A stretch of 29,064 bases of DNA, taken from a virus. Below, one piece after another: positions 641-23,347 of the stretch (the first letter of the stretch is position 1; each line of letters starts with the position of its first letter). The DNA is taken from IMG/VR virus record IMGVR_UViG_3300020312_000004, positions 1 to 29,064 of that record; one strand, written 5' to 3'. The translations under genes and the position numbers were made by a program. Under the pieces are notes generated by a model, which was given only the letters and a program-made list of their open reading frames with translations, had not been told where the DNA came from and did no database searches.

Positions 641-1180
641 TCAACTTGGATAATCCATATAGACCATCCCTGAGATCGTACTGCCTGACTCATCCGCACA
701 GAATACAGCGTGCATTAGGAAAGCAGGGAAAATAATGATACTCCCTGGCTCCAGATCAGGTTTATAATCCAATGGCAGTTGTGGTATATATCCTATTTGA
801 TTCTGGATCCCTATTATAGATGGGTTCTGAAAGGATGTCTTTGAATTTCTCTTTTCGTAAATTATAATACCCCACTGAGTTTTGGGATGTATATGTATAT
901 CTTGATAATCGCCAGGTCTATAATAATTTCTCCAGAAATCTCCTAATCTAGGATTATCTCCCATCAATCCTTCTGGTTCTAAATTTCTAGTGACAATCTC
1001 CTCAAGATGGCTCTTTGTCCAGTTATTAATCTCTACTTTCTTAGTGAATGTCTTATTATGAGAATAAAATCTAATGTCACTATCAACAGGATTAAGAAAA
1101 TCCTCTTCATCCCAAGGATCAAGAAGACTTAAATCAAATTTGTCCTCAAAAATAGGAATGGCAAAGATGTCTTTTCTCAT
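641..1180 (-). CDS. 2OG-Fe(II) oxygenase-like protein (179 aa)
   Basis: The protein resembles the phage 2-oxoglutarate/Fe(II) dioxygenase family (2OG-FeII_Oxy_5 type), double-stranded beta-helix enzymes that hydroxylate unknown substrates. Visible motif: YYRPGDYQDIHIHP, with H96 and H98 as the proximal metal ligands, then IIIFPAFLMHAV with H157 as the distal one. The usual Arg that binds the 2OG carboxylate after the distal His (an ERISxSFN-type motif) is not present; this position reads SGSTISGMVY. It may therefore use another residue or be inactive. The gene overlaps the next oxygenase-like gene upstream by an ATGA. Its PGD is encoded by CCTGGCGAT, one copy of a recurrent word. Confidence 0.75.
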   Translation of the reverse strand: MRKDIFAIPIFEDKFDLSLLDPWDEEDFLNPVDSDIRFYSHNKTFTKKVEINNWTKSHLEEIVTRNLEPEGLMGDNPRLGDFWRNYYRPGDYQDIHIHPKTQWGIIIYEKRNSKTSFQNPSIIGIQNQIGYIPQLPLDYKPDLEPGSIIIFPAFLMHAVFCADESGSTISGMVYMDYPS

Positions 1181-1791
1181 GTTTTAATATCATAAATGTT
1201 AAAACTCATTGTAATCCTCTCAACATCACTCTTAAAAGGATATACAGTATGTTTTAAAGTATTAGGAAAAAGGAATATATCACCAGTTTTAGGAATAACC
1301 TTATGAGTGCCAGAACACCAGAACCCAGATGAACCTTCTATAAACTCTAACTGTCCAGCACAAGGCATATTACTAGCAACAGGTTCTTCTGCTGCAATTT
1401 CCTCTGGTATATCAATCATTACAACAGAACTAAGATCTCCTGTATGAACATGTACAGGATTGAACTCATTCTTATGTTGGAAATTGATCCAAGGGCCTCT
1501 ACCATAATGATATGTAAGTTCTTTTATAGTAGTATCGCCTGGATTGATGGAATGTTTTTCCCACCTATCCATAATAGATTCCATATAAGAAAAAACGTGA
1601 GGATACATGAAGTTATTAAACTTCTCAGAATCTCCCACGATCTTAAATTGTTCTTGAATGTTACCAGCTAAACTATCACCAACATTCTGACCATGTTCCC
1701 TCGAAGATTCGGCTAAATCTTTCAAGTATTCAAGGTGTTCATTAGTTATAGTTTCTTGATAGATTAAAGGGCCGAATGGTTGAAGGATCAT
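1177..1791 (-). CDS. 2OG-Fe(II) oxygenase-like protein (204 aa)
   Basis: A second oxygenase-like protein, directly upstream of the first and overlapping it by four bases. It has the fuller motif set: FNPVHVHTGDLSSVV with H114, H116 and D119 as ligand candidates, GDIFLFPNTLKHTV with H181, and ERITMSFN with R192 as the 2OG-binding Arg. Length and order match the phage family. The substrate is unknown; in T4-like phages such proteins are proposed to modify nucleic acids or proteins, but this is not shown. A PGD at about residues 84-86 is encoded by CCAGGCGAT. Start ATG overlaps the TGA of the small upstream gene. Confidence 0.8.
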   Translation of the reverse strand: MILQPFGPLIYQETITNEHLEYLKDLAESSREHGQNVGDSLAGNIQEQFKIVGDSEKFNNFMYPHVFSYMESIMDRWEKHSINPGDTTIKELTYHYGRGPWINFQHKNEFNPVHVHTGDLSSVVMIDIPEEIAAEEPVASNMPCAGQLEFIEGSSGFWCSGTHKVIPKTGDIFLFPNTLKHTVYPFKSDVERITMSFNIYDIKT

Positions 1792-1949
1792 GCTTCATTT
1801 CTAATTTGTCTTTCCAGTTCTACCTTTAAGGACATTAGATGGCCTTGAAGATAGTGTTCGTATTCATTACCTTCAATCATTTTACTGATATAGTTCACAT
1901 ATGTCAAGGAGTCTCTTAACGGAGACTCAGGTGTTATTATTACTTCCAT
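1788..1949 (-). CDS. small protein, unknown function (53 aa)
   Basis: An ORF of 53 codons begins at ATG 1949, overlapping the TAA of the large virion gene in a TAATG junction, and ends in an ATGA with the next oxygenase-like gene. The protein starts MEVIITPESPLRDS and is predicted mostly helical (YVNYISKMIEGNEYEHYLQG). Perfect coupling on both sides supports a real gene. No family recognised. Its position between a virion protein and an oxygenase does not fix a role. Confidence 0.7.
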   Translation of the reverse strand: MEVIITPESPLRDSLTYVNYISKMIEGNEYEHYLQGHLMSLKVELERQIRNEA

Positions 1950-3571
1950 TAGGTTATCTCAGTCCAATCAAAGTTATCTATACTCTCTGCTCTATCCTTA
2001 AGACTCTTCCTATCTTGATTTAAGTAACCAATTCCCTGCATATATCCCCAAGCCTGAGTCTCCTCACTATTTCTTAGATCTCTTAGACTTGCAGCACCAT
2101 TGATATAATGGTTGATCTTTGGTGTACTTGCAGCAATCTGAGCATTCATCTCTGCCTCAGCAGTAGCAATAGCAGCATCATAAGTACCACAATCGCCTGG
2201 AATACCACCTGAAGGTGGAGTATTTTCATACGTTAAAGTTGCATTAGCAGTACCACCAACACCAATAATAATTTGATGTCCCTCTGCAGCATATACTGGT
2301 TGAACTGCACCACCACCTCCACTGAACGGTAGATATGATGGCCAATTAGTAGTACCAGTCCAATACTCTACTTTCCATGCCCCTACTGCTGGTTCAGGTT
2401 CTTCTCTAACCTGACTCCATGAGGCAACAATATCAGGATCCTTATTATTAATTAGTTCTAATCTATGTCCTTTACCAATTTGAGCTCCCTTAGCAATACC
2501 AATCTCCACAGGATCTATTGGATTCTTACTAGAATCAAATTCAATATCACCAAGTTCAGGAGGTCTAATAACAAGGAATGAACTACTAAGTCCTGCCTGA
2601 CTAGGTGTTTTATCTAACTCAGCAAAATAACATGTGGAAACAATACCAACAGCAAAAGCATGTCCTGTTGTTGCAGCAATACTTGCGGTTACTGCATTAC
2701 TTAATATTGCATAGTCAAGAACAACCTGAATTCCAGTAGTAATACCAGATGGATCAACATAAGTTATAATACCAACGGCAGTACCAAATCCTGTTATTGT
2801 AGTATTAGGTGCAATAATACCATCTCCACTCTTATCTAATGCTCCATAAACTCTATCACCAACACTAAACGAAGTTAATATTCCAAGTTTACCATCATCA
2901 TATAATTTATTATCAGCAGCAGTACAGAAACCAGTGACAGTATAAGTTACAGGGTCATAGGAAGTAGTACCAAGTCCAACTACAGTTGGTGTATTTCCTG
3001 ATGGGAAAATAAGAGCATTATCTAATGAATCAGTTATATAATCTCCCGTTCCAATACCAGCAACTACACCCGTAGTAAATCCCGTAAGTGTCTCTGCATC
3101 TTCATCTAAAATAATTAATGAAGCACTACCTACATTAGCATCCGCTTTATCAATAGTATCTACAACATTAGCTCCATACTCCCTATTCTTAGGGTATTTC
3201 CAGTACTTTGCACCATAATATCCTATATCTGTATAAGTATCAGGATCTTTTGCACATTCCCATATTTGAATGTCCTGACTGCCACTATTCCACCTTCTTA
3301 TTCTCTTCTCTTCCTTGAGAACCCACTTCAGATCACTACGACAACCATGTGAAATCCTATTATGATAAGCAGTTTCTACTGCCTTAATCTTAGTATTAAT
3401 GGGCGCAATCAAAGGTGGGATCTTATCATCCAACTTATTGATTAACTCGTCATAGTCATCAATTATAGCATCAACAAGAGTCAATTGTTCTGTCAGTTGG
3501 GCAACTTGATCAGCCTTTTGTTCTCGTTGATCCCTTAGTTTTTTAGCAATTTTTGCAGGATCAGCAGCCAT
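1949..3571 (-). CDS. virion structural protein, baseplate/fibre-associated type (540 aa)
   Basis: The N-terminal 75 residues are charged and heptad-like (LRDQREQKADQVAQLTEQL), so a coiled-coil oligomerisation stem is likely. The middle (about 140-320) is rich in Gly, Thr, Val and Ile with short beta-like repeats (VVGLGTTSYDP, TVTGFCTA). The C-terminal part includes a Gly-rich loop (PFSGGGG) and a helical end (AEMNAQIAAST). This is the composition of long phage fibre or baseplate-attached proteins, and the gene ends the structural cluster. There is no enzymatic motif. A PGD near residue 458 is encoded by the recurrent CCAGGCGAT word. A candidate late promoter lies 24 bases upstream of the ATG. 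The exact structural role is inferred. Confidence 0.6.
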   Translation of the reverse strand: MAADPAKIAKKLRDQREQKADQVAQLTEQLTLVDAIIDDYDELINKLDDKIPPLIAPINTKIKAVETAYHNRISHGCRSDLKWVLKEEKRIRRWNSGSQDIQIWECAKDPDTYTDIGYYGAKYWKYPKNREYGANVVDTIDKADANVGSASLIILDEDAETLTGFTTGVVAGIGTGDYITDSLDNALIFPSGNTPTVVGLGTTSYDPVTYTVTGFCTAADNKLYDDGKLGILTSFSVGDRVYGALDKSGDGIIAPNTTITGFGTAVGIITYVDPSGITTGIQVVLDYAILSNAVTASIAATTGHAFAVGIVSTCYFAELDKTPSQAGLSSSFLVIRPPELGDIEFDSSKNPIDPVEIGIAKGAQIGKGHRLELINNKDPDIVASWSQVREEPEPAVGAWKVEYWTGTTNWPSYLPFSGGGGAVQPVYAAEGHQIIIGVGGTANATLTYENTPPSGGIPGDCGTYDAAIATAEAEMNAQIAASTPKINHYINGAASLRDLRNSEETQAWGYMQGIGYLNQDRKSLKDRAESIDNFDWTEIT

Positions 3572-3594
3572 TAGTTCACGCAGGTCTCCATTCG

Positions 3595-3602
3595 TATTTA
3601 TT
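3595..3602 (-). promoter_or_regulatory. candidate T4-type late promoter (AATAAATA)
   Basis: On the minus strand TAAATAAATA sits in the only gap (26 bases) between the oxygenase-like gene ending at 3598 and the virion gene starting at 3571. T4 late promoters consist of a single TATAAATA -10 element read by gp55/gp33-directed polymerase; this copy has one mismatch. The distance to the ATG, about 24 bases, is compatible with a short leader. The motif overlaps the stop codon of the upstream gene. Confidence 0.45.
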
Positions 3603-4275
3603 TACCTAATTCCAGCCATTGTGATGGATGGGTTGATGCTTGACAATAATCAAAATGATCTTTCTTCAAAGTTATTCTAATATCGCCTGGAATAACTATT
3701 CTCTCATTCTTTCTAATAGCAATCTGTTGAGTAGAATGTATAGTCTTACTAGGAAATATAACAACTGTTCCTTCTTTAGGAGTAATAGTATAATTATCGC
3801 AATTATATCCATTAAATCCAGTTATAAGATTTCTCTGCTTTGATGGTTCAAATAATCCACCAACAGATTCATTCCTATTATCATTCTGTGTTATACACAA
3901 TTTATCAGAACTCTCATCAGTTTTAACATAATAAACGAAACTTAGATTAGCCTCATTATGATTGTGTGGTTTTAATTGTGGAGTACCACTATAGTGGCAT
4001 CCAGACCAAGCCTTAATAACATGGTAACTAAGTTTAGTATAATCTACATTTAATACCTTAAAGTATTCATCAATATGGCACTTTAATTCATTAAAGAAGA
4101 CTTGATAATATGGATTCTTGTGGAGAAATATTTTGCCAGAGAACTCTGGACTCTCGTTACTATATCCATCAAACCAATAAGACTTTAAAGATTCTAAATT
4201 CTCTCTCTTAAGATCCTCATGGCACTCCACATCTCCTTGGTAAACTACCAAAGGAAATAGTTTGTGTACCTTCAT
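3598..4275 (-). CDS. 2OG-Fe(II) oxygenase-like protein (225 aa)
   Basis: A third oxygenase-like protein, set within the virion block. Motifs: KPHNHNEANLSFVYYV with H104 and H106, GTVVIFPSKTIHS with H180, and NERIVIPGDIRITL with R192 for 2OG. The sequence begins KVHKLFPLVVYQGD, the usual N-terminus (phxLFPtPvy) of the phage family. It overlaps the upstream structural gene by an ATGA. The PGDI after R192 is encoded by CCAGGCGATATT, again the recurrent word. Its position between baseplate genes suggests late expression, which is unusual if it acts on nucleotides; modification of a virion protein is possible but only inferred. Confidence 0.8.
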   Translation of the reverse strand: MKVHKLFPLVVYQGDVECHEDLKRENLESLKSYWFDGYSNESPEFSGKIFLHKNPYYQVFFNELKCHIDEYFKVLNVDYTKLSYHVIKAWSGCHYSGTPQLKPHNHNEANLSFVYYVKTDESSDKLCITQNDNRNESVGGLFEPSKQRNLITGFNGYNCDNYTITPKEGTVVIFPSKTIHSTQQIAIRKNERIVIPGDIRITLKKDHFDYCQASTHPSQWLELGK

Positions 4276-5144
4276 AAACCATTGATATTATATTCTTTAT
4301 TATCGCCTGGATAGTCCTTCGGTGTCAAGCCTTCGTATTCAACTGTTAACTCTTCACCCATTCTATTTGCCCATATATGATAGAAACAATTAATTGGTTT
4401 ATCGTCTGCTTCTTTCACAACTACTTTTTCCTCATCAATTTCCATAACATTTAAATGGAAATGTCTGTCACCAATAGGTTGTAATTGTACAGTAATACTA
4501 TCATAATCAATCAATCCTTTCCAATAATCAGGCAATTCAATAGTATTATTATCTTTCAGAATACCACGAATATAAACTGCTGATTCTGGACCTTCTGGAC
4601 ATACATGTCTTATTCTATGACCAGCCTTAGTAGGATGAGGAATATCAAATCCTTTCTTAGATGCAATCCTAGCACTTAACATTGTAATGGTAGGACTACT
4701 AATTGTACCAGCAACTTTAAGTGCGCCAGCAATAGTTACTAATCCAGCAACATTAACATTAGCATTAAACTGTGACTTTGCATTACCTAAATTTAAAGCA
4801 TTCTTGATATTAATACCAGAGGTCTGACTAAGTGCATTTCTAATCGTAGCACCAAATTTAGTACATAAACCAGTGAAATTACTAACAGCAATAACATTGA
4901 CAATACCGTGGAAATTAGCAATACCATCACATCTAAGTGATAATGGTGCTCCAATACCAATAGGAGGACCAATCATTACTGTAGCAGTGGGAATTCCTGG
5001 CGATACTGCCATACCAAAGTAGACAGGTCCATTAGCAACTAATGTGCCTGGAAAAATCTTAGACGTTGCACTTAAGAACGACATATCCAACGCACCGATG
5101 ACACACTTGTCACCAATCGTTGCAATAGGCGTTTGCATTCCCAT
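4272..5144 (-). CDS. virion protein, spike/fibre-like (290 aa)
   Basis: Residues 1-95 are Gly/Pro/Ile-rich with short turns (IATIGDKCVIGALD, PIGIGAPLS), a pattern seen in spike-tip and PAAR-like folds, though no PAAR motif is clear. Residues 100-155 show beta-repeat composition (NVAGLVTIAGALKVAG), as in triple-stranded fibres. The C-terminal domain, from KKGFDIPHPTKAGHRIRHVC through CPEGPESAVYIRG, matches a module I associate with cyanophage tail-fibre and structural proteins. The gene lies two bases below its upstream neighbour and overlaps the oxygenase-like gene by ATGA. PGD near the C-terminus uses CCAGGCGAT. Role is inferred from composition and position. Confidence 0.6.
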   Translation of the reverse strand: MGMQTPIATIGDKCVIGALDMSFLSATSKIFPGTLVANGPVYFGMAVSPGIPTATVMIGPPIGIGAPLSLRCDGIANFHGIVNVIAVSNFTGLCTKFGATIRNALSQTSGINIKNALNLGNAKSQFNANVNVAGLVTIAGALKVAGTISSPTITMLSARIASKKGFDIPHPTKAGHRIRHVCPEGPESAVYIRGILKDNNTIELPDYWKGLIDYDSITVQLQPIGDRHFHLNVMEIDEEKVVVKEADDKPINCFYHIWANRMGEELTVEYEGLTPKDYPGDNKEYNINGL

Positions 5145-5146
5145 GA

Positions 5147-5716
5147 TTAGAAATCCAAGAATTGTTTAACAGCATTCAATCCACCCATGAGTTTACCATA
5201 GAAGGATGCCTTATATAAGTCGGTCATCTGTGTTAATTCATTAGTAATACCAGCAGTACTCTGAACGAATTGACCTGATAATTTTAAATCTTTACTTGCA
5301 AGAACACTGGTCATTTCACCATTGATTTTACAAATGGCTGCCCTTATCTCTACATGTTTACCTGAAGTAATTACACATTCACCATCGTCTGCGGTTGCTT
5401 CTATGGTAATGTTTCTACCTTTCAGGTGAAGATCACCAAATACTGCCTCAATATAGATGTCACCATTCTCTGCCTTAATTATCTTAGCAGGTTCATTCTC
5501 CTTACATTTAAAACCAGAGAGATCTAATGATGTCTTGTTAGTAGTTAAACGAGACAAACCATCCTTATAGAAACCAAGACCTTGGGCATTATCAGTAACC
5601 ATTACCCAGTCTGTTGTTCTACCCTTATCAGCACCTTTCTCAAGTTTAATACCTGTAGATAATCTATACCCAGGCTTCTGTTCGAAATAATATTTCTTTT
5701 GTTGTTTTTCTGCCAT
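5147..5716 (-). CDS. virion protein, beta-helix-like, downstream of gp5 (189 aa)
   Basis: The protein is short and beta-rich. From about residue 60 to 145 it has alternating hydrophobic strands with Gly/Asp turns (ENGDIYIEAVFGDLHLKGRN, ITIEATADDGECVI), similar to the triple-stranded beta-helix of phage spikes such as the C-terminal gp5 needle. The C-terminus is helical. It follows gp5 directly (four-base gap). Because the gp5-like protein here carries no obvious long beta-helix of its own, this protein could supply part of the needle or a chaperone to it. That is an inference from composition and context only. Confidence 0.5.
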   Translation of the reverse strand: MAEKQQKKYYFEQKPGYRLSTGIKLEKGADKGRTTDWVMVTDNAQGLGFYKDGLSRLTTNKTSLDLSGFKCKENEPAKIIKAENGDIYIEAVFGDLHLKGRNITIEATADDGECVITSGKHVEIRAAICKINGEMTSVLASKDLKLSGQFVQSTAGITNELTQMTDLYKASFYGKLMGGLNAVKQFLDF

Positions 5717-5720
5717 TATT

Positions 5721-8261
5721 TTATACTAAGGGTTTGCCAGGGCAATCGACCTTGTTAACGATGAGATACTGAGTGGTCGTTGTATCAATTCCTGCAACTG
5801 TATTAGAAGCGTCAGGATCGTAAGCAATGACTGGATATAATGCAGCACCTCTACCTGTGCTGGTATTTATTCTCAAATCTGGAATCGTATTAAACTTGTC
5901 CTTACAGACTACGTTTTTAACACCAACAACTTGTCCTGCAGGAGTAAGAATGAGATCGAAAGTACAATCACCATAAGTACCCTTATCTCCTGATGTGTAA
6001 CCATATCCAGGCCTATCAACATGGACAGTCGTAACAATACCAACGGGAGTACTACTAATACCACCAACAGATCTAGTAGTAAAGTTAAAAGTACTTGTAT
6101 CTGCAATACCAGCAAACTGGTTTCCAGCCAAATCAGTGAAGGCACACTGATCGATACCTATAAAGTATTCGGTATCATATTCTAAATCTTCTTTTGGATT
6201 AATAACAACAGTCTTTTGATTACTAAATGAAACCTGTGATCTATCAGTTACTTCAATCTCAGCAAACTTAGCATTAGTATCCAATTCAGTAATAGTAATC
6301 TTACCACAATCAGCAAGAACTTCCTCACTAAACTCAATAGTAATATTAATCGTAGTGTCTATACCAACTGCATTATCTCTTGGAGTAGTGACTACAAATA
6401 CTGGTGGAGTAGTATCGGGTACAGTAGTACCAGTATCAACATCTGTTGGAGTGCCTGGAAGATAAACCGATCCTTGGCAATATCCACCACCTTTATCTCG
6501 TAATACTATCCTATTAACAGTACCATCATCATCTATAAATGCCTCTGCATCTGCACCACCACCATGATTTGTCTTATCAATAATAGAGACAGCAGGGGCC
6601 TCTTGATATCCTCTACCACCATCAATAATTTCAACTGATAAGATACTACCATCCTGCGCTACAACAGCATACGCACTTGCTTTTTTACTAATGGTAGATA
6701 TTCCAACCAGTTCTACCTTCGGTGGTATGCAACGTGGATAAGTGAATCCATAAGGAGTGGGTCCAATATCATCCTGATCTTGGGGATTATCTCGTTTATT
6801 ATTGCATCGAGTAAATCCTAAGTAATTTCCACCCAATAATGTCAAGAAATCTAATTTACCATGTCCTGCTGAAGCAAGATCATTAAGAGTTACTGCACCA
6901 CCTGACCCACCAAGTAAACTATCACTAATAGAGATATTATTAACAAAGTTAGCAAGATTATCAGCTGGTTTTTCACTAAGTCCCCAACCAGAAGACCAAT
7001 CAGTAGACTTCTTACAACTTAAGCTATCACAATCAAGGAAACTTATAAGTTGATTCATCAAACCTGATACTGACTTCAACGCACCAGCAACAGATCCTAA
7101 CGCACCAGTTAACCAACTCAATCCATCCATTACTGGTTTCAATAATTTCTCAAGAGAATTGATAAGGGCAGATATCATTGCTGCAGCTGCTTGTTCTGCT
7201 GCACAAATAGGTGCTGCGATAGTTTTACCAATTAGATCCCTAAGAAAATTACCAATAAAATCACCCATCTCTATACCAAGTTTCTCAAAGATACAGAAGA
7301 TTATATCCATAATCTTTGAAAAAGCATTAGAGATTGGCTGAACCTGTGGATCAGGAACGATTAGTCCAACAAAGTCTCTAAATCTCTTACCAAGCATCTT
7401 CAAAAGTTTGTTTCGAAGATTCTTCATAATCTTCTTAATCGCACCCATGATAATGAGTTTCGTCTTGCGGATTATTCTCTTGATATCTTCAATAGCATTA
7501 TTGACAGAATCAATGTATTTCCCTAAAAATGACGTTAAACTATTAACAGTGGCGATAAAACTTCTAATGGCATTTGTAATCTCACTTAAAGTATTATTCT
7601 CACAACCATTAGGTTTGGTAACAGTAGTTCCTCCACGAGCAAATTGAGTATCTGCATCACTCTCTGGAAATATTTGATCCGTATTATTCATCGGATCTTG
7701 AGAAGATACAGAATTACCACTATTGGCTTCTGGAGTACCTAAATTCTGATTTTGTAATGGTGCAGAACTACTTGCACCTTGTTCCATTCCTGGCTGTAAA
7801 TCCACGCCAGGATAAGGTCTATAGTTAGAACTACCTTCAACTTCAGCAACATTACCAGATATCTGACTAATAGCAGAAGGAGCTCTGTATAGAGATCCAA
7901 ATATTACTGGTTGTTGTGCTTCATCACCATCCATGAAAAACCCAAAGACAGTCTCACCTCCAACAAGTTGAAGTGACTGTCCAAGAGCTCCATGTGCTGA
8001 TCCTCCAGAAGCAGGCGTCATTACATGAGCCCAAGGAAGATCCTTATCTGGTAATTCTGTGCCTGAGAAAGGGTGATAACCAATTATTCTAACTTTTGCT
8101 CTATAGGCCCAACTGAATTCGGCTTCAGCTGGTGTATCAAATAATTTGATTTCAGTCTTAGAATCTCTCCAGACACTAGGATGTGCAACTTGTCCGATCC
8201 ACCAAACAAATTGATCTTTACCTAAGAATTGTGATTTAATTAATGAATCGGTTGCTGACAT
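5721..8261 (-). CDS. 5: gp5-like baseplate hub/spike protein (846 aa)
   Basis: Residues about 15-130 form the OB-fold region of T4 gp5 (FVWWIGQVAH, RAKVRIIGYHPFSGTELPD, DLPWAHVMTPASGG, GETVFGFFMDGDEAQQPVIFGSLY), which joins the gp27 hub to the spike. The T4 lysozyme domain that normally follows is missing: residues 220-410 are instead helical and hydrophobic (NAIEDIKRIIRKTKLIIMGA). Residues 535-605 contain GxGY-type beta motifs (IIDGGRGY, KGGGYCQGS), and residues 619-730 an Ig-like domain of the bacterial Big_5 type (TPPVFVVTTPRDNAVGIDTT). It lies with the gp27-like gene, as hub and spike genes often do. The length, about 270 residues more than T4 gp5, comes from the middle and C-terminal insertions. 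Confidence 0.75.
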   Translation of the reverse strand: MSATDSLIKSQFLGKDQFVWWIGQVAHPSVWRDSKTEIKLFDTPAEAEFSWAYRAKVRIIGYHPFSGTELPDKDLPWAHVMTPASGGSAHGALGQSLQLVGGETVFGFFMDGDEAQQPVIFGSLYRAPSAISQISGNVAEVEGSSNYRPYPGVDLQPGMEQGASSSAPLQNQNLGTPEANSGNSVSSQDPMNNTDQIFPESDADTQFARGGTTVTKPNGCENNTLSEITNAIRSFIATVNSLTSFLGKYIDSVNNAIEDIKRIIRKTKLIIMGAIKKIMKNLRNKLLKMLGKRFRDFVGLIVPDPQVQPISNAFSKIMDIIFCIFEKLGIEMGDFIGNFLRDLIGKTIAAPICAAEQAAAAMISALINSLEKLLKPVMDGLSWLTGALGSVAGALKSVSGLMNQLISFLDCDSLSCKKSTDWSSGWGLSEKPADNLANFVNNISISDSLLGGSGGAVTLNDLASAGHGKLDFLTLLGGNYLGFTRCNNKRDNPQDQDDIGPTPYGFTYPRCIPPKVELVGISTISKKASAYAVVAQDGSILSVEIIDGGRGYQEAPAVSIIDKTNHGGGADAEAFIDDDGTVNRIVLRDKGGGYCQGSVYLPGTPTDVDTGTTVPDTTPPVFVVTTPRDNAVGIDTTINITIEFSEEVLADCGKITITELDTNAKFAEIEVTDRSQVSFSNQKTVVINPKEDLEYDTEYFIGIDQCAFTDLAGNQFAGIADTSTFNFTTRSVGGISSTPVGIVTTVHVDRPGYGYTSGDKGTYGDCTFDLILTPAGQVVGVKNVVCKDKFNTIPDLRINTSTGRGAALYPVIAYDPDASNTVAGIDTTTTQYLIVNKVDCPGKPLV

Positions 8262-8531
8262 TTACTCGTCGTATACTCTACACTCTAATGCGTCTGGATG
8301 GTTATCACAATAGACTTCAAGTTTTGAATCTTGATGTCTTGTATGCCAATCATTTATCTTACCATCGCCAGGATTGGCTTCGTTTTCTTCATGATCATGA
8401 AATGCGTCATTATGCATCTCTAGATCTGCTTCTGTATATTCGATCATGCCATGATTGACATGTTCTTTATGATCTTTAGGATCGATATAAACCTCATGAT
8501 TGAGGTCATGTTCTGGGATTTTTGTTGTCAT
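8262..8531 (-). CDS. His-rich acidic small protein between spike and hub genes (89 aa)
   Basis: Eleven of 89 residues are His (positions 8, 12, 21, 24, 27, 40, 45, 47, 63, 66, 78), interspersed with many Asp and Glu, and two Cys (75 and 84) lie near the end. H45-D-H47 gives an HxH pair. The gene sits directly between the gp5-like and gp27-like genes with gaps of zero and two bases. Metal binding is plausible. In other phages the spike tip binds iron through His residues, but no such fold is recognised here. PGD near residues 54-56 is encoded by CCTGGCGAT. Function unknown. Confidence 0.7.
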   Translation of the reverse strand: MTTKIPEHDLNHEVYIDPKDHKEHVNHGMIEYTEADLEMHNDAFHDHEENEANPGDGKINDWHTRHQDSKLEVYCDNHPDALECRVYDE

Positions 8532-9880: not shown

Positions 9881-11946
9881 TACGTGCCTAACTTAGTGAG
9901 TAACATTTGTTTAGTCAATGCTATAGCCATATCTCTATCAGATGCTTGTGGAATAGACATACTAGCTCCACCAGACTGAACAACCACAGGGGAAGGTAAA
10001 CTACCACCTGCACCACCATCACGAGTAACCATAATAACTTGTGGAGGGCCCTGACTATTTACCATCTGAGATTGAGGATTATTATTTAATGTGTATTGTT
10101 CTATAACCGTGGCAACTTCTTTGGGTGCCAATTCGGTCTTAACTACCTCAACATCCATCTTAGGAGTTTCAACTTCCTCATTCCTCTGATCAAAATCAAA
10201 TATATTTCCTGTTAAGAAATCACCAAAACCTGCGATCCCCCGCATAATTCCTTCAGGTTTTTTCTCTTCAGGTGGTTGAAGCTGTTCAGATGTTGCTTCT
10301 AATTCGCTTTTAACATCAGCTTTTGTAACTGACTCGGCATCAGCCGAGTCTTCCTGGGCAGACTGTACTGGTTTTTCTTCAATTTCTTTAGGTTCTGTGC
10401 TTAAAGCAGTAGAATCCTTAATCATATTAACATTAGAAGAAGTTTGTTCTCCAATCCTCGCCATCATCTTAGTTTGAGGATCTACTTTCTGTTTATCTTC
10501 TTTATCATCTTTCTTATTGAAGATATTCTTTATACCATCAACCATACTGCCACGTTTATCAAAATCAAAAATACCACCAGTAGCAACATCGGCAGCACCT
10601 GCCAACCATCTCATTGCACCTTCTGGTTTCTTCTCCACAGTCTCATTAGTAGTTAAAGTCTGATCAATATTAGTCTCATCATAAGACATATGACCTTTTA
10701 CAGTATTATCAGGATTTATTAAATTATTATCTTGCAACCTTTGCATAGTTCTAGCACGTTCTTTAGCACTAGAAGCTGCCTGTGCATCACTGCTCTTAAG
10801 TATGGGAAAAAGAACTTGAGGATCAATACCAGATGTTCCATCAACAATACTTTCTATAGTTGTTCCTTCAGGTAATTGAGAAAGAATTTGATCTTGATTC
10901 GCATAGAGATCTTCAAGTTGGATAGCACCTGTAGTTTTTTCTCTAGTCTTCTCCTTCGTCATCTCACCAGTAGTCTGGTTTACCGACTTCTTTGTTTTTA
11001 TTTCTGTTCTACTATAAACAAATTCCTCACCACCACTACCAAACTTATTAACTACATCTTCGAAACGTTTAACATCTAATATATCATCCTGTGGTTCTAC
11101 CTTACTATCAATTCCTTTTTTATCCTCAACTGGTTCATCTAAACCTTCACCATCATCTGATTTCTGACCTTCAACCTTTGACTCTTCTGTCTGTGTATCC
11201 TCTTGTTGCTCTTCATCTTGAGGTATTTCACCTTCTTCTTCATTCGCCTTATTAATATCTCTAGCAATAGTTGCAGTATCTAAAGCAGCAGATACAGCAG
11301 TTCCAGCGCCAGGAATGGTTGATGCAACACCAGATCCCATCTCCATTGCAGCACCTAACAGGTCTCCTTTCATTGCCTTTTCAATGGCAAAACCTGTTCC
11401 TAGAACTAATCCTAATATTGGTACTTTCTTCGCAAGAAACTTTCCAGCTCCCTTCTTGGCAGCCATTGCCCCTGCTTTCTGAGCACCTTTCTGTATTACT
11501 TTCTTCGCAGCTTTCTTACTACCCTGTTCGACCGCCTCTCCAGCAATCTTTCTTCCTGCTACTGATGCAGCTTTCTTAGTACCTGTTTTTGCACCCTTCT
11601 TACCACCTCTACTGAAGAGTTTCTTGACAAAACTCTTTCCACCCTTAACACCTTTCTTAAGGGCCTGGCCAGCCTTTTTAGTTGCGCCAGGGAATTGAAG
11701 AGCATTACCAGCAAGACCAAGTAAGCCAGCGCCACCTCCGCCTCCACCAGTGTTCTGTTTGAAGTTATTAAAGTCTTTGGCGTCTATCTTTGGTAGTTTG
11801 GATAGGTCTCTACCAGTATCCTGTACAAAATTAGATAGATCAGAAAATGATTTCTTGGATTCATTAAGAGCATACTTAGTCCTCTCAAAGACAGCGGAGA
11901 CTACCCTTTGTTTTCGTTGTATATTTGATACAGAGAGTCTTGCCAT
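9880..11946 (-). CDS. large tail protein, tape-measure-like (688 aa)
   Basis: Residues 1-60 are helical and basic. Residues 95-175 are a histone H1-like Lys/Ala/Gly stretch (KKAAKKVIQKGAQKAGAMAA), followed by a hydrophobic segment (VPILGLVLGTGFAIEKA, 175-191). A Glu/Asp/Gln-rich linker covers 235-290. Two copies of a 27-residue module (KKPEG.MR...G...FDFD.R) lie at 439-465 and 562-588. The end contains PPQVIMV and Gly-rich turns, as in many tail tape-measure C-termini. It stands where a tape measure should be, downstream of the gp26- and gp51-like chaperone genes, but T4 gp29 similarity is not visible. An alternative is a second baseplate-hub protein. Confidence 0.5.
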   Translation of the reverse strand: MARLSVSNIQRKQRVVSAVFERTKYALNESKKSFSDLSNFVQDTGRDLSKLPKIDAKDFNNFKQNTGGGGGGAGLLGLAGNALQFPGATKKAGQALKKGVKGGKSFVKKLFSRGGKKGAKTGTKKAASVAGRKIAGEAVEQGSKKAAKKVIQKGAQKAGAMAAKKGAGKFLAKKVPILGLVLGTGFAIEKAMKGDLLGAAMEMGSGVASTIPGAGTAVSAALDTATIARDINKANEEEGEIPQDEEQQEDTQTEESKVEGQKSDDGEGLDEPVEDKKGIDSKVEPQDDILDVKRFEDVVNKFGSGGEEFVYSRTEIKTKKSVNQTTGEMTKEKTREKTTGAIQLEDLYANQDQILSQLPEGTTIESIVDGTSGIDPQVLFPILKSSDAQAASSAKERARTMQRLQDNNLINPDNTVKGHMSYDETNIDQTLTTNETVEKKPEGAMRWLAGAADVATGGIFDFDKRGSMVDGIKNIFNKKDDKEDKQKVDPQTKMMARIGEQTSSNVNMIKDSTALSTEPKEIEEKPVQSAQEDSADAESVTKADVKSELEATSEQLQPPEEKKPEGIMRGIAGFGDFLTGNIFDFDQRNEEVETPKMDVEVVKTELAPKEVATVIEQYTLNNNPQSQMVNSQGPPQVIMVTRDGGAGGSLPSPVVVQSGGASMSIPQASDRDMAIALTKQMLLTKLGT
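10183..10263 (-). repeat. internal protein-coding repeat, copy 2
   Basis: This encodes KKPEGIMRGIAG then FGDFLTGNIFDFDQR, a close match to the copy at 10552-10632. The two are 123 codons apart in the same frame. Confidence 0.75.
10552..10632 (-). repeat. internal protein-coding repeat, copy 1
   Basis: This encodes KKPEGAMRWLAG then AADVATGGIFDFDKR. Both copies keep KKPEG, MR, AG and IFDFD at identical spacing. Confidence 0.75.
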
Positions 11947-14590: not shown

Positions 14591-15487
14591 TCAACCTATG
14601 TTACTGCTCATATTTTGCATGGGTACTCCCATGCCTTGTTTGAGATTATAGTCATTCTCATGTGACATGAGATTTTGTGCCTTTGTTGTAGTATTAGTAA
14701 CAAAATACCTTTCATATTTGAAGTCTACAGTTACTCTTAAAAGTTGAGCCTCATCATATCTCAACGGAAGTGAACTAATATTAACTGGGAATCCATTTAC
14801 AAACTCAAAGGTCAAATATCTATCAAAATTCTTTTCAAACTTAGTTACCATGAATGCTCTCTTATATTCACTTGGATAACGTTGTCTATGGAAATCTCTT
14901 GGATCTCTTGCAATATAACCACCAGAACGAGGTCTCAATACTGTACCAGCTGATTCTCCACCACGACCAACATGTAAGGGATGAATAAAATTAATCCATT
15001 CGTGGAATAAATTTAATATCTTATAATCACTAGAAACATAGAAGGTCATACTCATATCAGTATAAGTTCTTCTTGATGGGAAGAACTCTTCTATACCTTG
15101 TCTACTACCATATTCACTGAAAGTCTCAAAAGAAGCGCCAGGAATAAGAGTCTCAGCACACATGAAATTAAATCTCTGTGTCTGTGCTGTACTAGCAGTG
15201 TCACCAAATACACCTGCTTGAGTAAGATGTTGCATCAACTTACTTACTGATGCAGGACTAGATCCATTACTACCTTGATTCAATGAACTGTTATTTGCAT
15301 TTGCAGAAGTAGTATTATCTGTATTAAGAAATAGATTAACTTGATACTGATTACTTACCGCAGGTCCATTAAAATAAGTCTGAAAATTAAAATTCTCTGC
15401 ATAAACTCCCGAACCTGTTGGATCCATCGCCATGGGCTGAGGTCTGGGTGCAGTTTTATTAATTGTCTCTGGAATGGTATCGCTCAT
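14591..15487 (-). CDS. 54: baseplate tail tube initiator gp54
   Basis: The sequence matches the T4 gp54 type, the ring that seeds tube polymerisation on the baseplate. It has the tube-protein signature LIPGASFETFSEYGSRQGIE with FPSRRTYTDMSMTFYV, and later HEWINFIHPLH and RYPSEYKRAFMVTKFEKNFD. It is 298 residues against 320 in T4. A Ser/Asn/Gly-rich insertion (residues about 55-80) forms a flexible loop. It begins the minus-strand tail operon and diverges from gp4 across a 27-base gap. Confidence 0.85.
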   Translation of the reverse strand: MSDTIPETINKTAPRPQPMAMDPTGSGVYAENFNFQTYFNGPAVSNQYQVNLFLNTDNTTSANANNSSLNQGSNGSSPASVSKLMQHLTQAGVFGDTASTAQTQRFNFMCAETLIPGASFETFSEYGSRQGIEEFFPSRRTYTDMSMTFYVSSDYKILNLFHEWINFIHPLHVGRGGESAGTVLRPRSGGYIARDPRDFHRQRYPSEYKRAFMVTKFEKNFDRYLTFEFVNGFPVNISSLPLRYDEAQLLRVTVDFKYERYFVTNTTTKAQNLMSHENDYNLKQGMGVPMQNMSSNIG

Positions 15488-15961: not shown

Positions 15962-16452
15962 TTGCAGACGATGTAAGACAAAAAGCAGGAAAGAGAAATA
16001 GGAGTGGAGATTGGTATATCTCCCAACTAGAATTATCTCTTGATGCAGTACAAGATCCAGATATTAGTCAAAGTGACACTAATTACATGGAGATTGGAGA
16101 TCTTATGTTTTTCTCCTATGGGGCAAAATATGCAGAAAAACTACCATTCTGGGATTTACAACCTCTCACTTTTGTATTGAAATGGGAGACAGGTGGATTC
16201 TTAGGAGCAAATTTACACTACATAAATCCCGATTATAGGGACGCAGTTGCAAAAAGCTTAATAAATAGCGGTAGTGGGGCAGTTGTGCCCAAAAATTCAA
16301 TACATAGATACCTATTTTCTGGGATTGGCAATCTATATAAAATACCCAAAGATGAGGATTGGGGAAGTATTTCATTACTTCCAACTGAGAAATTTTACAC
16401 TAATAAAGGGAAGAAATTTCCAAAACACAGAGCCTGGAACTGGAACAAATAA
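15958..16452 (+). CDS. conserved-looking protein between gp4 and gp48, unknown function (164 aa)
   Basis: I choose ATG 15958, which overlaps the gp4 TGA. The longer reading from GTG 15916 would run 42 bases into gp4. The protein starts MIADDVRQKAGKRNRSGDWY and contains FVLKWETGGFLGANLHYINP and GNLYKIPKDEDWG, then a basic end. It ends at the same base as the gp48 start (TAATG). Its length and its place in a virion operon suggest a structural or assembly factor. No family is recognised with confidence. Confidence 0.75.
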   Translation: MIADDVRQKAGKRNRSGDWYISQLELSLDAVQDPDISQSDTNYMEIGDLMFFSYGAKYAEKLPFWDLQPLTFVLKWETGGFLGANLHYINPDYRDAVAKSLINSGSGAVVPKNSIHRYLFSGIGNLYKIPKDEDWGSISLLPTEKFYTNKGKKFPKHRAWNWNK

Positions 16453-18128
16453 TGGCAGTAACCGAAGCAAGATGGCGTAAAGTAGATATGAAGCCCCCAA
16501 TTACCCAGATAATTGGAGGTGCTGAGATCGAATATGAGTTGCAATATGATCAAGGTAACTCTGCTGTCAGACTAATCGAAACAGGAACAAACAAATCCAA
16601 TCCTGATGTAATCTTTGAAAATGGGAATTTTATTAATAACCCAAAATTGTTTAGTGATCTGACTTTAGAATCCACAAAGAGACAGTGGTTAAGAGATGTT
16701 CAAGTAGCAATTTCACAAGACCATCAGAATAAAAAAGTTAGATCCAGGCAACTATTAGCTGCTGGAGCAGTTAGTCCTCTATTACTACCAGTAGGTATAG
16801 TTGGTTCACTATATTATAACCGACAAACCAATCAACCAGAATGGTCTAGAAAAGAAAGATGGGGATTATATTCAGACGAACCAGCACTAGAACCAAAACT
16901 ATATGAAGGATCATCACCAGATGATTACACACCAGAAGGATTAGCAAGTATTAGTACTGAAGGTCAGAACCGCTTTGGTGATATCTTAAGAGCAACCTTC
17001 AACCCAATGGGGCAAGTTACCATATTTGCCACCAATGGTGCTCATTTTATGACTCTAAATGAGAAAACAGCTCCTAGAGTTCCTCTAATGTATCCTATGG
17101 ATATGTCTGATGAACAGGATAGGTTAGTGATCCATTGTTATACTTACAATCCTCCAAGTCAAAATTGGTTTGGTAGATCTGTTGATGGACCTAATGTAGA
17201 TCAAAGTAGAGGAAACATCTTAAGAGATGGTGCAAAGAGAGCAAGTCCTCTTAACGAATTAGTTGGTGGTGGAATTATCCTACCAATGCCTAACGTGATA
17301 AAAGATAGTAGTGCAGTAAGTTGGGCAACAGAAACTATGAACAATACTACTGCAGCGGCAGCTGGATTAGTATCAGAAAACTTCGCATTAAACCAAGTCG
17401 GTAATGTTGCTGCTGGAGTTCTTGACTTCTTAAGTGGTCCATTTAATATTGGATCTGGTATACAAGGACTATTAACTAAAGGCAAACTACTAACTGAAAC
17501 TGGTCAAGCTGGTGCAGCATCAATGGGTGCAGGTAACCTATCTAACCAGTTAGGTAGACAAGGATTTGATGTCAGTCCTGAAACATTACTCTCCAGAGGT
17601 TCTGGAGTAGTTCCAAACTCAAATATGGAACTAATGTTCAAAGGACCGAAGATGAGATCATTCAACTTCAATTTCCAATTAACTGCTAGAAGTCCAGAAG
17701 AAGCAAAGGTAATCGTTAGAATTATCAGATTCTTTAAAGAGATGTCTGCAGCGAAGAAAATTGTAGGTTCTGGTGGATCACAAGGTAGAGCAGGAGATCC
17801 TTCTTTCTTCCTTGGAACTCCTAACGTATGGACTCTTAGATATTGTTCTGGTAACTATAAAGATATTCCTGGCGTTCACAAGTTTAAACCTTGTGCATTA
17901 ACCAGTTTTGAAACAGATTATACTCCAACTGGTAGTTGGCAGGCTTATGAAGATGGTCAACCTGTTACATACAAAATCCAAATGGAATTTGCTGAGACAG
18001 AACCAGTATACAACACTGATTATAATGATAGGGTTGCTGATGGTAGACTGATGCAGACTGGTGACCTTGGAGAAAGTACCAATAAGGGCGATCTTCAATC
18101 AATACCAAAGAATTGGATAGGTTATTAA
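16452..18128 (+). CDS. 48: baseplate tail tube cap gp48
   Basis: The protein is of the gp48 type that sits between baseplate hub and gp54/tube. Recognisable segments are GQVTIFATNGAHFMTL, the tube-like FKGPKMRSFNFNFQLTARSP followed by EEAKVIVRIIRFFKEMSAA, and FKPCALTSFETDYTPTGSWQ. At 558 residues it is longer than T4 gp48 (364), with an Ala/Gly-rich insertion at about 285-370 (NTTAAAAGLVSENFAL). A hydrophobic stretch near residue 97 (LLAAGAVSPLLLPVGIVGSL) is unusual for a tube protein. It is followed one base later by gp53. Confidence 0.8.
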   Translation: MAVTEARWRKVDMKPPITQIIGGAEIEYELQYDQGNSAVRLIETGTNKSNPDVIFENGNFINNPKLFSDLTLESTKRQWLRDVQVAISQDHQNKKVRSRQLLAAGAVSPLLLPVGIVGSLYYNRQTNQPEWSRKERWGLYSDEPALEPKLYEGSSPDDYTPEGLASISTEGQNRFGDILRATFNPMGQVTIFATNGAHFMTLNEKTAPRVPLMYPMDMSDEQDRLVIHCYTYNPPSQNWFGRSVDGPNVDQSRGNILRDGAKRASPLNELVGGGIILPMPNVIKDSSAVSWATETMNNTTAAAAGLVSENFALNQVGNVAAGVLDFLSGPFNIGSGIQGLLTKGKLLTETGQAGAASMGAGNLSNQLGRQGFDVSPETLLSRGSGVVPNSNMELMFKGPKMRSFNFNFQLTARSPEEAKVIVRIIRFFKEMSAAKKIVGSGGSQGRAGDPSFFLGTPNVWTLRYCSGNYKDIPGVHKFKPCALTSFETDYTPTGSWQAYEDGQPVTYKIQMEFAETEPVYNTDYNDRVADGRLMQTGDLGESTNKGDLQSIPKNWIGY

Positions 18129-18956: not shown

Positions 18957-19391
18957 ACGTTGAGTAAAATCAATGCCTTCCATATGATCATACTCGTGTA
19001 AAAATATTCTGGCAATCAACCCTGTAAGTTTCTCCTTACGGGGTTTTTTGTCTTCTGTCTCGTATTTTACTACGATAGTTGCTGATCTGTCTATATCCAA
19101 AGTCATGTCTGGATATGATAGGCAACCTTCTTGCATTTTAACTTGTTCCTTAGACTCTTTAAGAATCCTAGGATTATAACAAGTAATAGTATCTTTCGTC
19201 TCCAAATCAGAGTACATAATAAAAACCCTCTCAGCGATACCAATTTGGTTCGCTGAAAGGCCTACTCCCTCATAATGTTTCATATTCTCCAACAATATGC
19301 TGGAGAATTGAAATCTATCCAAATTATAACTACACTTCGCAATGCGATTATGTAGTATAGGATCATCAGAGGGTACTAAAGTTTTAATCAC
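18936..19391 (-). CDS. def: peptide deformylase (151 aa)
   Basis: This is an Fe/Zn hydrolase that removes the formyl group from nascent proteins; cyanophage versions are thought to serve photosystem protein turnover. All three motifs are present: GVGLSANQIG (residues 42-51), EGCLSYP (88-94, metal Cys90) and HEYDH (132-136). It starts with GTG at 19391, overlapping the gp32 stop (GTGA). The final residues ADLAQR and the stop are encoded by the first 21 bases of tRNA-Gly. The protein is short at the C-terminus and lacks the extra helix of bacterial enzymes. Confidence 0.92.
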   Translation of the reverse strand: MIKTLVPSDDPILHNRIAKCSYNLDRFQFSSILLENMKHYEGVGLSANQIGIAERVFIMYSDLETKDTITCYNPRILKESKEQVKMQEGCLSYPDMTLDIDRSATIVVKYETEDKKPRKEKLTGLIARIFLHEYDHMEGIDFTQRADLAQR

Positions 19392-20293
19392 TCTTCCGCT
19401 AATTTCTGGAAATAACTAAGAGCATCGTCCTCATCCTCAGTATTACCTGCGGTTGATGTTGATGCAGCAGCAGTAACTAATTCCTTAAGTTCAGAATCAG
19501 TACCACGACCTTCACTCTCATCTTCTAGGGACTCATCTACTTTCTTAGCAGCAAATTGACCCCTAAGAACAGTCTCTAAACGCTTACTCAAATCTTCATA
19601 AGACTTGAATTGATCAGGAGCAGTAAATTCATTCAGGTCGTATAAACCATCATAAATTTTCTCCAGTTCCTTATCATCATCTAGGAGTGGTGAAACTTTA
19701 TCAAAAGTTGATGAATCATAGTTCCAGAATCCTGCAACCTGTTTGATCTTCAACTTAAAGTTAGCACCTTGCCAGAAATCAAAAGGATTGATTGGATCAT
19801 CATCCTCAAATTCTGGTTGCATTGCAGCAGTAATCTTATCAAAAATCTTCTTACCAAACTTGTAGAGGAAGGTTTTACCTTCATTCTCAGGATTGGTTGA
19901 ATCCTTTACAACATAGATGTTACTGTAGTAAGAAAGCTTACGCTTCTGTTTACGTGCAATCTCTTTATCAGATTCTACGCCACTATTCCACAATCCACGA
20001 TTAAATTCAGAAACAGGATCGTCTTTACCGAGAGTAGTCAAACTATTCTCAATATACCAACCGCCAGGGCCCTGAAATGCATGACTCCAAACTTGTGCCC
20101 AAGGTAGGTCACAATTCTCTGGTGCAGGCAAGAAACGAATGATTGCAAAACCATTACCTGCTTTATCAACAGATGGTTTCCACAGTCTATCGTCTGTATT
20201 AGCTCCCTTCTCGTTAAGTTTCTCAACCTTCTTCATCAATCTCTCAGTGAGAGAACCCGAACGGGATTGTTTTTTAAGTGCAGCAAATGACAT
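19388..20293 (-). CDS. 32: single-stranded DNA-binding protein gp32
   Basis: T4 gp32 homologue (301 residues, same length). Residues 1-20 form a basic self-interaction arm (KKQSRSGSLTERLMKK). The core has aromatic and basic OB-fold residues (GFAIIRFLPAP, WYIENSLTTLGKDDP, KRKLSYYSNIYVVKD). The C-terminus is acidic (EDEDDALSYFQKLAEE) for partner binding. T4 gp32 binds zinc through one His and three Cys. Here only one Cys (position 61) exists in the whole protein, so the zinc site is absent. A ribosome site GGAG and a consensus sigma-70 promoter precede it. Confidence 0.95.
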   Translation of the reverse strand: MSFAALKKQSRSGSLTERLMKKVEKLNEKGANTDDRLWKPSVDKAGNGFAIIRFLPAPENCDLPWAQVWSHAFQGPGGWYIENSLTTLGKDDPVSEFNRGLWNSGVESDKEIARKQKRKLSYYSNIYVVKDSTNPENEGKTFLYKFGKKIFDKITAAMQPEFEDDDPINPFDFWQGANFKLKIKQVAGFWNYDSSTFDKVSPLLDDDKELEKIYDGLYDLNEFTAPDQFKSYEDLSKRLETVLRGQFAAKKVDESLEDESEGRGTDSELKELVTAAASTSTAGNTEDEDDALSYFQKLAEE

Positions 20294-21032: not shown

Positions 21033-21677
21033 CTATAGTGGAGGAGGAGTGTTTTCGAGGGAGCTTCCATACATCTCTTGCCAGGTTTCACTTAATCTTG
21101 TAAATCGAATATTAAAACTGAGACTTATTCTATCGTTATCTGTCTCATTAACTCTTGTCCCATGATACATCAGGCCAGGGAATAAAGCAATTAATCCTTG
21201 TTTTAATGGAAGTTCTTGATCTGCTGTAATAACATCGTATATAAAATTACAGATATAAGGTTCGTGGGGGCTTCTAAAAATTAAATTACCATCCTTACCA
21301 CTTGTGTTTAGATAATAAACTCCAGATACATCTGTACTTCCATGATTATGTATAGGAGCATATTTACCTCTACCTGTTCTAGTAAACCAAGATTGAGTCA
21401 TTGTATATGATCTCTCTTGTTGGCAACCTAAACCAGTCAAATAATCATTAATACAATTATGCAAGAACATCAAAAAGTTATTGCATCCATATTCTCTAAG
21501 AACATTTCCTTCAAAAGCACCTTGACTTAAAGAATGAGTATCAGTTGCCCAACCATCATTTTGACCAAATTCTAACTGGTCCACAACCTCCCATAGTTCA
21601 TCTTGAATAATCTCATACATCTGAGGATCTGCCTGAGATGTATATACGGGTGTTGGAAATACAGATTGAATAGGCAT
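21033..21677 (-). CDS. 2OG-Fe(II) oxygenase (214 aa)
   Basis: The most complete member of the family in this window. The N-terminus is MPIQSVFPTPVY. The ligands are in YAPIHNHGSTDVSGVYYL (H110, H112, with D116 nearby) and GLIALFPGLMYHGT (H172), and R183 of NDRISLSFNIRF binds 2OG. The C-terminal WQEMYGS tail extends past the core. It overlaps the gp33 stop (TGATG), so it is co-transcribed with late-transcription and replication genes, unlike the copies in the virion block. Confidence 0.85.
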   Translation of the reverse strand: MPIQSVFPTPVYTSQADPQMYEIIQDELWEVVDQLEFGQNDGWATDTHSLSQGAFEGNVLREYGCNNFLMFLHNCINDYLTGLGCQQERSYTMTQSWFTRTGRGKYAPIHNHGSTDVSGVYYLNTSGKDGNLIFRSPHEPYICNFIYDVITADQELPLKQGLIALFPGLMYHGTRVNETDNDRISLSFNIRFTRLSETWQEMYGSSLENTPPPL

Positions 21678-22595: not shown

Positions 22596-23347
22596 TATAA
22601 TTCAAGGGCAAGTTTAGTAAGTAAGTAATTTCGTACTAAGCCAGATCGAACAATATCATCAAGACCAAATTCAACAACCCCAAAGTCATCTTCCATGACT
22701 TGAATTATTTTCATAAAATCTACGATTCCATCCTTCTCAGCTGATTTTGTAAGATCAGTTTGTGTGGCATCACCACAGAATATAATTTTACAATTATCAC
22801 CTACACGAGTAATTATACTATCTAATTCGTGAAAATTCAAGTTCTGCATCTCATCTATTAACACAATGCAGTTATCCATAGTAGTACCACGGATGAAGGA
22901 AGTACTCCAGAATCCTATAGTCTCCTGTGTTTTAAGATTACCATACAGCATTTCAAAGTCTGCATCTGTAGGCATCTCAAACATATACTTTACCATATTC
23001 TTATATGGAATCTGATAAAGTGATGACTTATCATCATGGTCGCCTGGAAGGAACCCAATCTCTCTTGTTGATACGAGAGATCTTACAATGTAAATCTTTT
23101 CATATGGGGAATCATCACTAAGAACATCCTTAAGTGCAAGGTACAAACTGATAAAAGTCTTACCAGTACCAGCAGCACCATAAGCAAAGATATTCTTACC
23201 TTCCTCATAATGTTTATATAAAACCTTCTGATTGTCAGTTAGAGGCGTAATATCTACCAACATATCTGTGTTGATAGGTTTCTTACGACGCATCTGTTTG
23301 GCAGTCATACCAACGCCAACTTGAGGTGTTCTCTTCTTCCTTGGCAT
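22595..23347 (-). CDS. phoH: PhoH-like ATPase
   Basis: A P-loop ATPase common in marine phages. Walker A is GAAGTGKT (57-64), the PhoH-specific REIGFLPGD lies at 95-103, Walker B is IVLIDEMQN (161-169), and a sensor-like CGDATQTDL lies at 191-199. The function in phages is unresolved; in hosts it is linked to the phosphate regulon and RNA metabolism. The N-terminal 30 residues are basic. The start overlaps the stop of the upstream gene and the 3' end overlaps the exonuclease start. Its PGD uses CCAGGCGAC, but this motif is conserved in the whole family. Confidence 0.93.
   Translation of the reverse strand: MPRKKRTPQVGVGMTAKQMRRKKPINTDMLVDITPLTDNQKVLYKHYEEGKNIFAYGAAGTGKTFISLYLALKDVLSDDSPYEKIYIVRSLVSTREIGFLPGDHDDKSSLYQIPYKNMVKYMFEMPTDADFEMLYGNLKTQETIGFWSTSFIRGTTMDNCIVLIDEMQNLNFHELDSIITRVGDNCKIIFCGDATQTDLTKSAEKDGIVDFMKIIQVMEDDFGVVEFGLDDIVRSGLVRNYLLTKLALEL

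Follow-up and report, generated by a model that had tools for sequence, protein, structure and literature searches.

A recurrent nine-base word in a cyanophage genome: probable by-product of restriction-site avoidance with escape at GCY

Why should one exact nine-base word, CCWGGCGAT, recur in a cyanophage genome in genes as different as oxygenases and virion components? The window, meaning the whole stretch of DNA analysed here, is an entire IMG/VR record of 29,064 bases and a fragment of a T4-like cyanophage (a cyanomyovirus contig). Its genes encode a baseplate hub, a tail tube, a gp32-like protein, PhoH, a transaldolase-like protein, and several 2OG-Fe(II) oxygenases. The word occurs seven times against 0.12 expected, and none of 100 dinucleotide-preserving shuffles reached seven. 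The initial annotation, which first reported these copies and their excess over chance, placed every one of them correctly.

Six copies lie on the minus strand and are read in frame as Pro-Gly-Asp (PGD); the seventh is on the plus strand, inverted and outside that frame, as had been described. Three of the six fall in 2OG-Fe(II) oxygenase genes, assigned by Pfam PF13759: CCTGGCGAT at 908..916 (RPGD, gene 641-1180), CCAGGCGAT at 1534..1542 (NPGD, gene 1177-1791), and CCAGGCGAT at 3682..3690 (IPGD, gene 3598-4275). The last site is PGD in 3/3 homologues, with glycine codons GGA, GGA, and GGC; the first two sites are not conserved, and both genes are fast-evolving. Two further copies are in structural-module genes: CCAGGCGAT at 2192..2200 (IPGD, gene 1949-3571), where PGD with GGC is found also in relatives G001 and G008; and CCAGGCGAT at 4302..4310 (YPGD, the phrog_17490 gene 4272-5144), where Pro-Gly is present in 9/9 homologues with GGA, GGT, or GGC. 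The sixth, CCTGGCGAT at 8364..8372 (NPGD), lies in a CP12-domain gene, 8262-8531. The plus-strand copy, CCTGGCGAT at 4996..5004, lies inside minus-strand gene 4272-5144, which reads VSPGIPT there. The flanks of the seven copies have no sequence in common outside the word.

Two features of the gene content deserve mention in their own right. The 29 kb hold six 2OG-Fe(II) oxygenase-like genes (641-1180, 1177-1791, 3598-4275, 21033-21677, 24539-25054, and 28421-28870), one of which scores below its Pfam cut-off. The CP12-domain gene has a His-rich start and lies upstream of the baseplate hub/lysozyme gene; CP12 occupies the same place in isolate S-SSM7.

That glycine is GGC in every copy, as the initial annotation emphasised, is true by construction, because GGC belongs to the word itself. 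The codon bias nevertheless extends to Pro-Gly in general. Among 30 Pro-Gly dipeptides in the 40 window genes, the glycine codon is GGC in 20, GGA in 8, GGG in 2, and GGT in none; elsewhere in the window, GGT is the commonest glycine codon (359/650, about 55%) and GGC accounts for 51/650 (about 8%). Synonymous-codon shuffles that keep both protein and codon use give 2.6 in-frame CCWGGC and 12.7 in-frame CCWGGT, against 18 and 0 observed. The excess therefore survives codon-preserving shuffles, its unit shifting from the nine-mer to CCWGGC, and no base preference is seen 3' of GGC at 570 such sites. The exceptional feature is CCW followed by GGC, not the nine-mer; GAT is just an aspartate codon. 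Aspartate follows Pro-Gly in 8/27 cases in the window, compared with 7.3% in relatives, an excess that is probably a local coincidence and through which the nine-mer became visible.

The bias is not confined to reading frame. A G outside the site (GCCWGG or CCWGGC) accompanies 34 of the 35 CCWGG sites in the window, and CCWGG without this outer G occurs once against 25 expected, the sole exception being TCCTGGG at 10352..10358 on the plus strand. The third base of the codon before proline also serves as an escape (GCCWGG), besides the glycine codon. The copy at 4996..5004, a CCWGG with outer G but out of the PGD frame, is what a DNA-level rule predicts. Near copies of the word mostly encode Pro-Gly too. 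Two are IPGA, both CCTGGCGCT on the minus strand: that at 11305..11313 obeys the rule with a different residue after Pro-Gly, and that at 15134..15142 lies in the tail tube gene (14591-15487), whose Pro-Gly is kept in 37/38 homologues. IPGV, CCTGGCGTT at 17868..17876 on the plus strand (gene 16452-18128), likewise obeys the rule. GPGG, CCTGGCGGT at 20060..20068 on the minus strand, is in the gp32-like gene (19388-20293); PGG is found in 58/73 homologues, its glycine being GGT in genomes free of the bias and GGC in most biased relatives. Finally, PhoH (22595-23347) has CCAGGCGAC at 23039..23047 on the minus strand, in the FLPGD context (LPGD at the site itself); PGD, the motif that the initial annotation called conserved here, is present in 115/115 homologues.

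Comparison with 80 relatives found through PhoH separates two kinds of genome. Most use GGT and GGA at Pro-Gly; a subset of loci shows the switch to GGC. The bias is common to contigs G001, G006, G007, G008, and G017 and to S-SSM7, isolated on Synechococcus WH8109, and was absent from 13 other named phages in which it was sought. In biased genomes each class of CCWGG without outer G is at or near zero in all frames; out of frame, pooled relatives have 10 CCWGGD against about 102 expected, and 12 CCWGGC against 16. At 246 conserved Pro-Gly sites the outer G is present in 244 biased members and 36 bias-free homologues, with 208 discordant pairs in one direction and 0 in the other. Avoidance operates at the level of DNA, whatever the frame.

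Sites other than CCWGG follow the same outer-G rule. CCGG lacking an outer G is missing, and CCGG that has one is partly tolerated, in eight genomes (G017, Sf-FS3, S-CAM9, S-PRM1, S-SCSM2R, S-8S53, G010, and G004). When palindromic cores were scanned without bias, CCWGG, CCGG, and CTGCAG proved to be gated by the outer G in these genomes. Pooled counts add CCATGG (2 observed against 66 expected without outer G, 38 against 24 with it) and CTCGAG (0 against 35, and 8 against 15). For CAATTG and CACGTG, where the outer G would create GCA, pooled counts show no rescue. Because the rescued sites begin with CC or CT, the protected context would be GCY (RGC on the opposite strand). A general GpC modification is disfavoured: CAATTG and CACGTG are unrescued, and ATGCAT and GTGCAC are avoided in tolerant genomes.

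Protection of this kind predicts that palindromes with an internal GCY should be spared, and they are. AGGCCT, GGCGCC, AGCGCT, GCCGGC, and GGGCCC are tolerated in gated genomes and missing from S-BM3, Syn1, Bellamy, P-SSM2, G012, and DSL-LC03. In the tolerant class, observed and expected GCY palindromes are 33/34 in S-CAM9, 62/40 in S-8S53, 26/39 in S-PRM1, and 20/37 in S-SSM7; in the intolerant class they are 0/37 in S-BM3, 0/35 in Syn1, 0/43 in Bellamy, 0/31 in G012, and 0/24 in P-SSM2. Nine palindromes that lack GCY are heavily reduced in almost all genomes of both Kyanoviridae classes, and TTCGAA and GGTACC are lost in nearly all. These palindromes lie far below a codon- and protein-keeping null, the pattern of restriction avoidance, and we infer that nucleases are the selecting agent. 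(Other extreme losses, observed against expected, include ACGT in G012, 0/362, L113-L121; GTAC in Syn1, 0/250, L201-L204; TTAA in S-BM3, 31/305, L161-L164; and GTNNAC in G001, 17/118, L088-L090.)

These patterns suggest a model in which avoidance of restriction sites, with escape through modification at GCY/RGC, leaves CCWGGCGAT as a by-product; we regard this as the probable explanation. The phage lineage would be unable to keep CCWGG or CCGG in its DNA, CCWGG surviving if the C that opens the site on at least one strand sits in 5'-GCC-3'. Modification of that C (or of its G partner) in GCY would block endonucleases, one modified strand being enough, and the escape would be general, rescuing CCWGG, CCGG, CTGCAG, CCATGG, CTCGAG, and sites with internal GCY. 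Since Pro-Gly is encoded by CCN-GGN, the synonymous escapes left are glycine as GGC or a preceding codon that ends in G; GGC followed by the common aspartate codon GAT yields CCWGGCGAT. Of the options raised in the initial annotation, a DNA signal such as modification came nearest, although the word itself would be no signal, only the permitted residue of a site that is otherwise avoided. S-SSM7 (CCGG 0 against 202 expected), G001, G008, and the window have no CCGG at all, outer G or not, and GGSCC too is missing from S-SSM7, so the protection would fall short of some enzymes.

The strongest competitor dispenses with modification: host endonucleases might simply be blind to their sites when G precedes the first C. 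Site avoidance for orthodox Type II enzymes is common in non-temperate phages (PMC6286503), and flank blindness accounts for CCWGG and for CCGG taken separately. Nevertheless, five specificities (CCWGG, CCGG, CTGCAG, CCATGG, and CTCGAG) would need identical blindness. Nor does it predict that AGGCCT, GGCGCC, and GCCGGC are tolerated in the same genome class, a sparing that the flank blindness of one endonuclease leaves unexplained and that modification at GCY explains; nor does it predict a link with a phage gene. It is therefore rather unlikely. A search for the host endonuclease through EcoRII-C gave no match in any genome, controls included, a negative that carries no weight either way.

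Such a link is seen. In a gene-content comparison across genomes, with the genes of S-CAM9 and S-PRM1 as the queries, the gene ranking first for GCY tolerance encodes a protein of about 380 residues resembling DruA. Each of the six tolerant isolates compared has it, as do S-SCSM2R and G010; Sf-CH8 alone among the intolerant genomes compared carries it (52% identical; GCY palindromes 5 against 33 expected). The gene adjoins the clamp-loader gene gp62, and its neighbours in S-SSM7, where it is SSSM7_173, are gp44 and gp62. Its protein has invariant residues, some of them in motifs GGKLL and FETTSLYG. It has been annotated as "putative cytoplasmic protein" or hypothetical, and by the S-SCSM2R submitter as "methylcarbamoylase mom". 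The protein matches Pfam PF14236 (DruA) over about 100 residues at 44.5 bits (cut-off 27; E 1e-11), as well as phrog_19197. An AlphaFold2 model (pLDDT 82, pTM 0.81) has a GNAT fold, and comparison with PDB structures returns GNAT matches; Mom of Salmonella phage FSL SP-031 is among the best named viral structure matches (E 1e-3). DUF4338 has been described as GNAT (PMC10853773).

Data independent of the hypothesis comprise a later collection of 202 non-redundant IMG/VR loci, of which 164 were assigned to a class, and the last three phages. Among the new loci, GCY palindromes number 63 against 123 expected where the gene is present (non-GCY controls 39/694), and 18 against 230 where it is absent but gp44 and gp62 are present (controls 137/1275); Fisher's test gives p 2e-17, uncorrected for kinship. 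Two of the last phages are tolerant as predicted, DSL-LC02 (13 against 7.3 expected) and Pelagibacter phage HTVC008M (8 against 4.8). The third, S-SM2, is contrary to prediction, with a 49% identical gene yet no GCY palindromes against 6.8 expected; divergent versions, as in S-SM2 and Sf-CH8, may be inactive or of other specificity. The gp44 tree holds only three independent, well-supported gene changes; two or three of them fit the association and hardly any contradicts it, a number too small for a significant result. A search for gp44 and gp62 in the window and in the G001, G006, G007, G008, and G017 contigs found neither, which places the gp44-gp62 slot outside them; the phage from which the window derives is predicted to carry the DruA-like gene.

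The leading candidate for the modifying factor is this DruA/DUF4338 phage protein with a Mom-like GNAT acyltransferase fold. GCC and GGC hold no A, making C (for example at N4) or G a likelier target than the adenine modified by Mom. In its most specific form the proposal is tentative, and we put it at somewhat under even: one marine lineage of T4-like phages (Kyanoviridae, with the Pelagibacter phage among them) would possess a new DruA/DUF4338 enzyme of GNAT type, acylating C (or G) in 5'-GCY-3'/5'-RGC-3', with one strand sufficing against many Type II endonucleases.

Alternatively, the protection could be real and due to another enzyme, such as an orphan methyltransferase of the host or the product of another phage gene, the DruA-like gene being a mere lineage marker. 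This would accommodate the small number of phylogenetically independent gene changes and the poor fit of S-SM2 and Sf-CH8, and C5-methyltransferases are indeed patchy in the host family (36/300 genomes). Yet the C5-methylase family (PF00145) is in none of the phages tested, and N4/N6-methylase (PF01555) is confined to two intolerant phages, P-SSM2 and S-BM3; tolerant phages stem from several host strains; and the remaining genes of the two query genomes fit less well. We consider this alternative unlikely. Explanations through 7-deazaguanine, C5, or N4/N6 methyltransferase genes were rejected, no fitting genes being found; TGT/DpdA family genes were detected in 0/10 relatives, several of them partial, in a search that covered relatives other than the named isolates.

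A second phage gene looked perfect at first. The Mom-like gene SSSM7_282 of S-SSM7 is present in the biased G001, G006, G007, and G008; it was ruled out as the cause, since DSL-LC03 has a 65% identical Mom-like gene yet is free of the CCWGG bias (129 against 114 expected), and since Mom is absent from the CCGG-gated isolates. It is kept as a lineage marker. Within the S-SSM7 lineage this Mom-family gene (PF25680; L225:16772-17395 in S-SSM7, and L227-L248) is close to psbA. Mom-bearing phage loci of other lineages (L257, L258, L263-L266, L279, L280, L282, and L285) have zero CCWGG with or without outer G. DSL-LC03 gates another site, GGCC (0 against 60 expected without outer G, 38 against 22 with it). 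Overlapping its Mom-like gene is one annotated as a type II restriction endonuclease (L226:5469-6639); searches gave it neither a convincing match to a family or PDB entry nor any relative in phages. Mom fused to nuclease domains is known in jumbo phages (PMC7824862).

The remaining readings fare worse. A codon-pair or translational effect, with CCW-GGT slow or frameshift-prone and GGC favoured after proline, would suit the strongest visible signal, which is in frame at Pro-Gly. It is very improbable: the rule also holds for out-of-frame and opposite-strand CCWGG, related phages lack the bias, and use of the preceding codon's last base as an escape is not what a translational effect predicts. 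An RNA or packaging site, another suggestion of the initial annotation, is unsupported because the bias is genome-wide, independent of frame, and present in some relatives and not others. That the word is mobile, tag-like, or a homing target is scarcely credible: seven exact copies do lie within 7.5 kb, yet nothing is conserved outside CCWGGC, Pro-Gly is ancestral with other glycine codons at most sites having homologues, and alignments show neither an inserted block nor clean insertion boundaries.

In marine cyanophages, most of whose genes have no known function, selection against restriction-type sites appears very strong; among the papers searched, none was a study of cyanophage restriction-site avoidance. 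In the relatives, the pattern points to a chemical shield on viral DNA that has not been described before. Plain genome sequence would in this way reveal DNA modifications that are otherwise unseen, and the sequence context of each, through the bases flanking the sites that survive; if the proposal is true, the specificity of an enzyme can be read from the restriction sites that phages could keep. It predicts GCY/RGC modification in isolates S-SSM7, S-CAM9, S-PRM1, S-8S53, and Sf-FS3, and names a candidate gene. GNAT-type DNA modification would gain a new base target, and the DruA family, for which to our knowledge no biochemical function has been described, would gain one.

Several known systems invite comparison. 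Mom of phage Mu (PF25680) has a GNAT fold and modifies DNA adenine as an anti-restriction measure. The DruA-like gene likewise belongs to a phage, has a GNAT fold by structure comparison, and would act against restriction. It differs in that the GCY/RGC context holds no obligatory A; the protein also has no PF25680 match, and profile comparison with Mom (hhalign) gives a probability of 1.6%. The modification of phage CAjan by 7-deazaguanine reportedly has a GGC motif. Phage DNA modification with 7-deazaguanine (PMC6884629) shares with the present case a context-specific protection that would include GGC; unlike that motif, the CTGCAG and CTCGAG escapes require AGC too. Lytic phages that avoid Type II restriction sites (Rusinov et al. 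2018, PMC6286503) share the complete or nearly complete loss of palindromes, whereas the loss described here hinges on a single base outside the site, which rescues several different sites. With DruA of Druantia the phage protein shares its PF14236 (DUF4338) match. No Druantia partner genes were seen next to the phage gene, which sits instead in the replication module, and its proposed role would be to shield the phage's own DNA and not to defend a host.
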